Source: a virus
Reading direction: 5' to 3' (one strand)
IMG/VR virus record: IMGVR_UViG_3300021519_000070
Coordinates: 1-24,973 of that record
Length of the DNA: 24,973 nt
This document shows, piece by piece, positions 3,716 through 6,339 of this stretch (position 1 is the stretch's first letter; every line of letters begins with the position of its first letter). The notes beneath the pieces were generated by a model. It saw only the letters and a list, made by a program, of their open reading frames with translations. It had not been told where the DNA came from and did no database searches. Made by a program: the position numbers and the translations under genes.

Positions 3716-5980
3716 ATGGACCCTACAGGTATTATTGCGGCGGCTAAGGTTGCTAACGTCGGAGGCCCGACCCCTGACAAGGACCGCAATGATACCTTAG
3801 CCACCATGCGTGGCCGGTTTACTATGGCTATGTCGGCTTACAGCGACAGCCGCGAGGATGAGTTGGACGACCTGCGGTTCATGGCAGGCTCGCCTGACAA
3901 TCAGTGGCAGTGGCCGGCGGACGTGTTGGCGACGCGCGGCTCGATCCAGGGCCAGACGATCAACGCGCGTCCGTGCCTGACGATCAACAAGCTGCCGCAG
4001 CACGTCCGCCAGGTAACTAACGAGCAGCGGCAGAACCGGCCATCGGGCAAGGTCATCCCCGCCGACGACGACGGCGACGTCGAGGTCGCCGAGATCTTCG
4101 ACGGTATCGTGCGCCATATCGAGTACATTTCGGACGCCGACGTGGCCTATGACACGGCCTGCGACAACCAAGTGACCTACGGCGAAGGTTACATCCGCAT
4201 CCTGACCGAATATTGCAGCGAAGATAGCTTCGATCAGGAGCTAAAGATCGGTCGCATACGCAACTCGTTTAGCGTTTACATGGACCCGACGATCCAAGAC
4301 CCTACAGGGGCTGACGCCCAGTGGTGTTTCATCACCGAAGACATCAACAAGGCCGATTATTCCCGGATGTTCCCCGACGCCGCGCCGGTCAGTTCTATGC
4401 TGGCGCAAGGCGTGGGTGACCAGTCGCTAAGCCAGTGGCTGTCCGAAGATACGGTCAGAATTGCCGAATATTTCTATATCGACCATGAAAACGTGACTTT
4501 GAACCTGTATCCGGGCAATGTTACGGCGTTTGTCAACACCCCGCAGGACAAGCAATTAAAGGCCCAATACGGCGGAAAACCGCTGAAAAGCCGCGTTGTA
4601 GACCGTAAAAAGGTCATGTGGATCAAAACTAACGGCTACGAAGTCATCCAAGAGCGTGAATGGGCCGGCCAATGGATACCCGTCATCCGCGTGGTCGGAA
4701 ATGAGTTCGAAGTGGACGGCCAACTGCACGTTTCCGGCCTTGTGCGTAACGCCAAGGACGCGCAGCGCATGTACAACTACTGGGTCAGCCAAGAAGCCGA
4801 AATGCTGGCGTTGGCTCCCAAAGCGCCCTTCATCGGCTACGGCGGGCAGTTTGAAGGCTACGAAAACCAGTGGAAGACCGCCAACACGACCAACTGGCCG
4901 TACCTGGAGGTCAACGCCGACGTCACAGACGGCGCTGGAGCCACCCTGCCACTCCCACAGCGGGCGCAGCCTCCGATGGCGTCCAGCGGCTTGCTACAGG
5001 CCAAGGCGGGCGCGTCTGACGACATCAAATCGACCACCGGCCAGTACGACGCCAGTCTAGGCGCGCGAAGCAACGAGCGGTCGGGCAAAGCGATCCTCGC
5101 CCGCGAGAAGCAGGGCGACACCGGCACCTACCATTACGTTGATAACCTAGCCCGTGCGATCCGCCACGTCACCCGGCAACTGGTGGACATCATACCCAAG
5201 ATCTACGACACCGAGCGGGTGGCGCGCATCGTCGGGATCGACGGCGAAGTCGGCATGGTGAAGATCAACCCGTCGCAACAAGAGCCGGTCAAGAAGATCA
5301 TCGACCAAGACGGCAACGTGATCGAGAAGATTTACAATCCGTCTGTCGGCACCTACGACGTCATGGTCACGACTGGCCCCGGCTATATGACCAAGCGCCA
5401 AGAAGCCCTAGACGCTATGGGCAACATCCTCCAGACCAACCCGCAACTGTGGCAAGTGGCCGGCGACTTGTTCGTGAAAAACATGGATTGGCCCGGCGCG
5501 CAGGAAATGGCGGCACGGTTCAAGAAGATCATCGACCCGCGCGTGCTGGCGGACGACGACAAGTCGCCTGAGCTACAGCAGGCCGAGAAGATGAACCAGG
5601 CCATGCATCAGGAGCTAGAGCAGGTCACTGGGATGTTGAAAAACGTCGAGAAGTCGATGGAAGCGCAAACGCTTAAGGTCAAGGTGTTTGAAGCCGACAT
5701 TAAGGCGTTCGATGCGGAAACCAAGCGTATAGCCATCGTTCAAGCGTCCATGAACCCGGAACAGATCCAAGACATTGTCATGGGCACGATCCACGGCATG
5801 ATGACGTCTGGCGACTTGGTCATGCCGTCCGACGACCGTGGGGCTATGGGTGCCGGCGATGCCATGCCAGAGCAACCGCCAGAGCAACCGCCAGAGCAAC
5901 CGCCAGAGCAACCGCCAGAGCAACCGCCCGAGCCGCCGCCAGAGCAACCGCAAATGCCTGACATGGGGCAACCGCAATGA
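3716..5980 (+). CDS. Portal protein, P22 gp1 type
   Basis: 754 aa, close to P22 portal length (about 725). The portal is the dodecameric ring at one capsid vertex that docks the terminase, passes DNA, and then binds the gp4-like tail accessory protein. Supporting stretches include the N-terminal DDLRFMAGSPDNQWQWP (about 51-67), RPCLTINKLPQHVRQVTNEQ (about 86-105), and a central GARSNERSGKAIL region (about 450-462), all with the character of P22-like portals. Residues from about 630 to 690 form a helical, coiled-coil-like region matching the barrel of long portals. The C-terminus ends in a Pro/Glu/Gln repeat (listed separately) and probably lies disordered inside the capsid. The downstream gene overlaps its stop in ATGA. 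Confidence 0.93.
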   Translation: MDPTGIIAAAKVANVGGPTPDKDRNDTLATMRGRFTMAMSAYSDSREDELDDLRFMAGSPDNQWQWPADVLATRGSIQGQTINARPCLTINKLPQHVRQVTNEQRQNRPSGKVIPADDDGDVEVAEIFDGIVRHIEYISDADVAYDTACDNQVTYGEGYIRILTEYCSEDSFDQELKIGRIRNSFSVYMDPTIQDPTGADAQWCFITEDINKADYSRMFPDAAPVSSMLAQGVGDQSLSQWLSEDTVRIAEYFYIDHENVTLNLYPGNVTAFVNTPQDKQLKAQYGGKPLKSRVVDRKKVMWIKTNGYEVIQEREWAGQWIPVIRVVGNEFEVDGQLHVSGLVRNAKDAQRMYNYWVSQEAEMLALAPKAPFIGYGGQFEGYENQWKTANTTNWPYLEVNADVTDGAGATLPLPQRAQPPMASSGLLQAKAGASDDIKSTTGQYDASLGARSNERSGKAILAREKQGDTGTYHYVDNLARAIRHVTRQLVDIIPKIYDTERVARIVGIDGEVGMVKINPSQQEPVKKIIDQDGNVIEKIYNPSVGTYDVMVTTGPGYMTKRQEALDAMGNILQTNPQLWQVAGDLFVKNMDWPGAQEMAARFKKIIDPRVLADDDKSPELQQAEKMNQAMHQELEQVTGMLKNVEKSMEAQTLKVKVFEADIKAFDAETKRIAIVQASMNPEQIQDIVMGTIHGMMTSGDLVMPSDDRGAMGAGDAMPEQPPEQPPEQPPEQPPEQPPEPPPEQPQMPDMGQPQ
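5867..5950 (+). repeat. 12-bp tandem repeat encoding PEQP units at portal C-terminus
   Basis: Seven consecutive 12-base units based on CCAGAGCAACCG, each encoding Pro-Glu-Gln-Pro. Units 1-5 and 7 are identical and unit 6 (5927-5938) differs at three bases (Glu-Pro-Pro). Because the unit is a multiple of three, copy-number change would keep the frame. Near-perfect identity at the DNA level points to recent expansion by slippage rather than selection on the protein alone. Confidence 0.97.
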
Positions 5981-6339
5981 AAGCCGCCGACTTCATAGGT
6001 ATGTTGTTCTTGGCGCGCGACGTAACGCACTCGGTCCACCTGAACACCCGCAGCTACGCCAAACACAAGGCGTTGCAGAAGTTCTACGAGAATATCGTGG
6101 ATCTAGCTGATGGGTTTGCGGAAGCCTACCAAGGCCGCAACGGACTTATTGGCCCGATAACTTTGATGTCGGCCAAGAAAACCACCAACGTTGTAGAGTT
6201 TTTGGAAGGCCAACTTGTTGACATTGAAGAAGGCCGCTACGAAGTGGCCCCCAAGACCGACACCCCGTTGAATAACCTCATTGACGGTATTGTTGAGCAG
6301 TATCTCAGCGCGCTTTATAAACTTAAATTTTTGTCATAA
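5977..6339 (+). CDS. Helical phage protein with Dps-like ferroxidase residue spacing
   Basis: 120 aa, started within the portal stop (ATGA). It resembles a family of uncharacterised phage proteins that I recall as DUF5856; that name is from memory. The N-terminal region is two helices containing VTHSVHLNTRSYAKHKAL and VDLADGFAEAYQG. His18, His30, Asp45 and Glu49 are separated by 12, 15 and 4 residues, the same steps as His51, His63, Asp78 and Glu82 of E. coli Dps, whose di-iron ferroxidase site sits between subunits. The DxxAE element is also shared. The chain is shorter than Dps (about 167 aa), so a complete four-helix bundle is not assured. The E. coli Dps Asp67 equivalent is Gln34 here. 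A ferritin-like fold is inference; the function in phages is unknown. Codon use matches the portal. Confidence 0.8.
   Translation: MKAADFIGMLFLARDVTHSVHLNTRSYAKHKALQKFYENIVDLADGFAEAYQGRNGLIGPITLMSAKKTTNVVEFLEGQLVDIEEGRYEVAPKTDTPLNNLIDGIVEQYLSALYKLKFLS

Follow-up and report, generated by a model that had tools for sequence, protein, structure and literature searches.

We analysed a 24,973-base virus record (IMGVR_UViG_3300021519_000070; the whole stretch is called the window below), which we read as being of the P22-like podovirus type. PHROGs profiles recognise terminase, portal, scaffold and major head protein in the window, and the named genomes closest to it are those of podoviruses whose head genes are of P22 type. 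The portal gene (3716..5980, plus strand; phrog_156, E=9.9e-129) ends in a tract of PEQ/PPE repeats (window positions ~5840-5975), immediately upstream of the overlapping start codon of a gene for a 120-amino-acid protein (5977..6339, plus strand). The portal stop and this start share a 4-base ATGA overlap, so the gene lies directly 3' of the portal gene, in line with the 'post-portal' position given in a preliminary description of the locus. Of 80 close IMG/VR relatives, 76 likewise have the portal gene as neighbour; the ATGA overlap could be checked in 77 and is present in 74 of these. Elsewhere in the window, an ORF at 18150-18614 matches short tail fiber/adhesin families (phrog_12032, E=4.3e-30).

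The 120-residue protein belongs to DUF5856 (PF19174; E=8.7e-19, 68.8 bits against a curated cut-off of 34.6), the family named for it in the preliminary description, and to phrog_858 (E=1.9e-23), labelled 'starvation-inducible transcriptional regulator' in PHROGs. Relatives occur in 1388 phage records. Carriers include podoviruses, small myoviruses, Ackermannviridae (LIMEstone1 ORF78 and Det7), a huge phage and T4-like phages, where the gene is rI.-1 (= mobD.6); rI.-1 of T4 is itself a DUF5856/phrog_858 member. The position of the gene depends on the group: directly after the portal gene in podoviruses, beside rI in T4-like phages, and between virion protein genes and primase in Ackermannviridae. 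Strict phage specificity of the family is nearly, not fully, true. A scan of genome contigs found one MAG contig with a DUF5856 member, which has the same portal neighbour as in the window, and one further genome among 299 of the MAG's phylum has a member flanked by cellular-looking genes. Our literature search found no mention of DUF5856 and no published functional claim.

The preliminary description drew attention to His18 (6028..6030), His30 (6064..6066), Asp45 (6109..6111) and Glu49 (6121..6123; all plus strand), spaced by 12, 15 and 4 residues like the ferroxidase residues His51, His63, Asp78 and Glu82 of E. coli Dps, and to a further histidine, His21 (6037..6039, plus strand). All are present in the ORF as described. 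The exact H-12-H-15-D-4-E pattern arose in 0.011% of shuffles of the protein sequence and in one of the 178 six-frame stretches of at least 60 amino acids in the window, the DUF5856 protein alone; its rarity in both indicates that the spacing is not a chance product of composition. The homologues did not contradict the proposal either: H21, H30, D45, E49, Y114 and L116 are invariant in 84 of 84 DUF5856 members less than 90% identical to one another, and H18 is kept in 83 of them. Eight DUF5856 and six Dps proteins were also put into one joint alignment, in which just four columns are fully invariant: H21, H30, D45 and E49.

Comparison of the DUF5856 and Dps profiles by hhalign gave a probability of 90% and an E-value of 1.6e-6 over 110 columns, pairing H21 with H51, H30 with H63, D45 with D78, E49 with E82, and Y114 with W160. 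The score, 43, was far above the controls: the profile when reversed reached 15, and none of 100 shuffles exceeded 16.6. A search of the PDB with the DUF5856 profile found the Dps protein NapA at E=3e-4, phrog_858 is matched by phage Dps proteins (E=2.5e-4 and 5.6e-4), and phrog_3636, a Dps family, by a DUF5856 member (E=5.7e-5). Pfam Ferritin (PF00210) left the window protein unmatched, below its cut-off, unlike Dps, and picked up one of 16 DUF5856 members, at E=0.15. These computations show that the window protein is homologous to Dps, as a shortened and diverged relative.

The proposed match to the Dps residues held for H30, D45 and E49, but the first ligand is H21, not H18. H21 falls at the position of His51 by HMMER, by hhalign and in the joint alignment, which excludes H18 as the homologue of His51; the second alignment of the first helix offered earlier, with His21 as ligand, was thus the right one. 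The homologous spacing is H21-9-H30-15-D45-4-E49, and both HMMER and hhalign open a 3-residue gap in the A–B loop of the window protein, a loop that is usually 3 residues shorter in DUF5856 than in Dps. Three kinds of family member argue for the same register. First, in members with a longer loop, it is the distance from H21 that approaches that of Dps: the loop of L113 (HLRVSGRGSFAKH) gives a distance of 12 from H21, equal in length to that of NapA (HWNVKGTDFFNVH), which has the full Dps loop, and members from huge (jumbo) phages have an H21–H30 spacing of 13. In L113 and the jumbo-phage members H18 and H30 are 15-16 residues apart, and H21 and H30 12-13. Second, residues 21-22 are His-Trp, as in Dps, in L112, L120, L148, L156 and the bacterial L310. 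Third, H18 is absent and H21 kept in L112 (Arg) and L310 (Lys). The exact 12-residue distance between H18 and H30 is partly coincidental, because H18 lies 3 residues upstream of the ferroxidase histidine and the loop has lost 3 residues. Judged by the alignments, the 12-15-4 match is genuine, but it reflects the true homology only indirectly and is in part coincidence.

The AlphaFold2 monomer model (75 sequences; mean pLDDT 94.8, pTM 0.88) has four helices: helix A (residues 3-23; 5983..6045), helix B (27-55; 6055..6141), helix C (72-90; 6190..6246) and helix D (96-118; 6262..6330), all plus strand, with Tyr114 of helix D at the position of Dps Trp160 by hhalign. Helices B and C are joined by a loop (residues 56-71; 6142..6189, plus strand) in which the BC helix of Dps is absent. 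In a Foldseek search of the PDB the best 25 matches listed were all Dps, with TM up to 0.73 and a best E-value of only 0.11. VIA-align gave Z=14.2 over 118 residues for MsDps2 and Z=13.1 over 117 residues, at 2.4 Å, for E. coli Dps; the best 50 matches listed were Dps, bacterioferritin/ferritin and other ferritin-like proteins. Since a Z near 13 can be common among helical bundles and be reached by chance, we give the sequence evidence more weight than the structural match. The model of a T4-type rI.-1 homologue has the same fold (pLDDT 90.9, Z=13.6 to MsDps2). The mini-ferritin-like fold suggested from a few residues is, therefore, the one predicted, an antiparallel four-helix bundle of the ferritin/Dps type. 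PA2169, YciE and YciF-type proteins, which are similar in size, are ferritin-like bundles too (Z 12-13); the comparison with them is by fold only, and we found no sequence link between them and the window protein.

DUF5856 shares with Dps (E. coli Dps, MsDps2, NapA) the four-helix fold along the whole chain, the same four ferroxidase residues in the same order, an aromatic residue at the Trp160 position and, in some members, the His-Trp pair. The window protein is, however, shorter (120 amino acids against 167 in E. coli Dps), and it lacks the BC helix and the carboxylate of Dps Asp67. Q34 stands in place of the latter, and position 34 is mostly N, G or Q in DUF5856; Gln is also found at the Asp67 position in two Dps proteins of the Dps alignment. 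The basic DNA-binding N- and C-terminal tails of Dps, which not all Dps proteins have, are absent too, with helix A starting at residue 3 and helix D reaching residue 118 of 120. With no BC helix, no third carboxylate and no tails, the window protein is Dps-like rather than Dps proper. On this evidence it is nevertheless predicted to work like a Dps.

Dps proper is also carried by phages, as is known for Lactobacillus phages (PMC6669764) and the gut 'Gratiaviridae' (PMC8008677), and E. coli Dps matches 141 phage records, 95 of them Streptomyces phage. The phage Dps family phrog_3636 (Streptomyces, Lactobacillus and Campylobacter phages) resembles DUF5856 in being phage-borne, in the shortness of two proteins from Streptomyces phages and in the weak reciprocal profile matches, and differs in having the full Dps loop length and, in most members, His-Trp. 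Two Streptomyces phage Dps proteins (L299:1456-1857 and L300:1468-1866; 132-133 amino acids) have a complete ferroxidase set and hardly any N-terminal tail; in contrast to DUF5856, they keep Asp67 and match Pfam Ferritin.

In Dps the ferroxidase residues meet across a two-fold axis. In the window protein H30 is separated from D45 and E49 by 15-19 residues of one predicted helix, about 22-28 Å at 1.5 Å per residue, so that one monomer cannot form a four-residue site; the invariance of all four residues then points to the Dps-type two-fold arrangement in DUF5856. We therefore favour, with a probability of roughly 70%, a reading in which the protein is a shortened mini-ferritin, a relative of Dps, with an Fe(II)-oxidising site between subunits. 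Each 120-residue subunit would be a bundle of four antiparallel helices, and His21 at the end of helix A and His30 at the start of helix B would form the site together with Asp45 and Glu49 from the middle of the partner's helix B. The near-invariant His18, one helical turn before H21, may add a ligand that replaces the missing Asp67. Such a site would most likely bind Fe(II), which peroxide or oxygen would oxidise, so that phage DNA would suffer less Fenton damage while in the infected cell and, for some phages at least, also when packaged in the particle. We infer the dimer site, iron binding, its oxidation and any cage from the homology and the predicted fold.

Some relatives are indeed found in virions. 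LIMEstone1 ORF78 was identified there by mass spectrometry with 3 unique peptides and 28% coverage (PMC3296691). In the T4-like Klebsiella phages ValerieMcCarty03/04, gp108/100 gave 26/27 spectra in CsCl-purified virions, the authors' cut-off being 15 (PMC13119998); the gene adjoins rI, which makes it the rI.-1 homologue, and its product is 34% identical to the window protein. As the mass spectrometry comes from distant relatives, it is only gene position that suggests virion presence in the window's own podovirus group. The virion association, the coupling of the gene to the portal in this group and the missing third carboxylate would also fit a ferritin-like protein whose metal (for example, Zn or Mn) is structural, holding a dimer near the portal or head, and which has no ferroxidase activity. 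We consider this unlikely, though the most serious of the alternatives: the retained ligands are exactly the ferroxidase set of Dps, no other Dps feature is equally conserved, and the gene has no recognised head gene as neighbour in T4-like phages, among others. A relative of the window phage carries within its head gene block an ORF annotated as a 2OG-Fe(II) oxygenase (L082:20893-21504), possibly a second iron protein near the DUF5856 gene.

T4 rI.-1 has been proposed to be an accessory protein of lysis inhibition: it lies in the rI operon, and lysis inhibition collapses slightly later when it is over-expressed (Golec et al. 2010, as reported in PMC6832632). Such a role is very improbable for the family. 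The effect, as reported there, is small, comes from over-expression and could be indirect, via the handling of iron or redox state. No rI is annotated beside the gene in the podovirus relatives of the window or in Ackermannviridae, and the authors of the RaK2 genome note that the homologue is present while lysis-inhibition genes are absent (PMC3622015).

The names given in PHROGs and RefSeq ('starvation-inducible transcriptional regulator', 'DNA binding protein') would make the protein a transcription regulator that binds DNA, which is less probable again. These names most likely derive, by remote homology, from that of Dps ('DNA protection during starvation'); they imply that a remote link to Dps had been noticed earlier, and already hint at Dps. 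No DNA-binding domain was found in the window protein, which has a slightly acidic pI of 5.9 (family median 5.3) and only two residues before helix A. DNA binding through basic tails, as in Dps, is thus not expected, and the earlier suggestion that the protein might bind DNA during packaging gains no support. That the protein is a generic four-helix bundle with His and acidic residues placed by chance is barely credible: four-helix bundles do give middling structural matches to many proteins, but the residues are invariant across homologues only 23-40% identical to the window protein, the profile matches to Dps are reciprocal, and the shuffles together with the conservation rule out a chance origin of the pattern.

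The iron-oxidising mini-ferritin reading gives a widespread phage family without established biochemical function a candidate Dps-type iron site. It would also account for the odd name 'starvation-inducible transcriptional regulator', for which 'Dps-like ferritin' is the better fit. More tentatively, it is possible that DUF5856, T4 rI.-1 included, is a distinct minimal class of mini-ferritins, packaged in the virion and with an inter-subunit iron site that may be His-rich through His18, so that phages would carry or deliver, along with their DNA, a protein that oxidises iron and consumes peroxide. If true, this would tie virion proteins to the iron and peroxide chemistry of the infected cell.

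Similar folds were seen in other viral proteins in BFVD. Giant viruses of eukaryotes encode two proteins whose predicted fold resembles that of the window protein (TM 0.74-0.75), A0A481ZC29 of Pithovirus LCPAC404 (115 amino acids) and A0A7D3V608 of Fadolivirus (129 amino acids). Three phage proteins (A0A6J7XDU5, A0A6J7WIS1 and A0A8S5MNG7), annotated as prohead protease (333 and 432 amino acids) and NUDIX hydrolase (713 amino acids), contain a stretch matching the ferritin-like fold and may be domain fusions. A DUF5856 member is also encoded on a bacterial contig (L310:1459-1815, minus strand; genome G212, about 0.9 Mb), where its neighbours are ORFs resembling oleate hydratase and a lipoprotein, as judged by eye. 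This protein has His-Trp, a spacing of 9 residues, Lys in place of H18 and, where Dps has Asp67, an Asp; from these residues it looks intermediate between DUF5856 and Dps.
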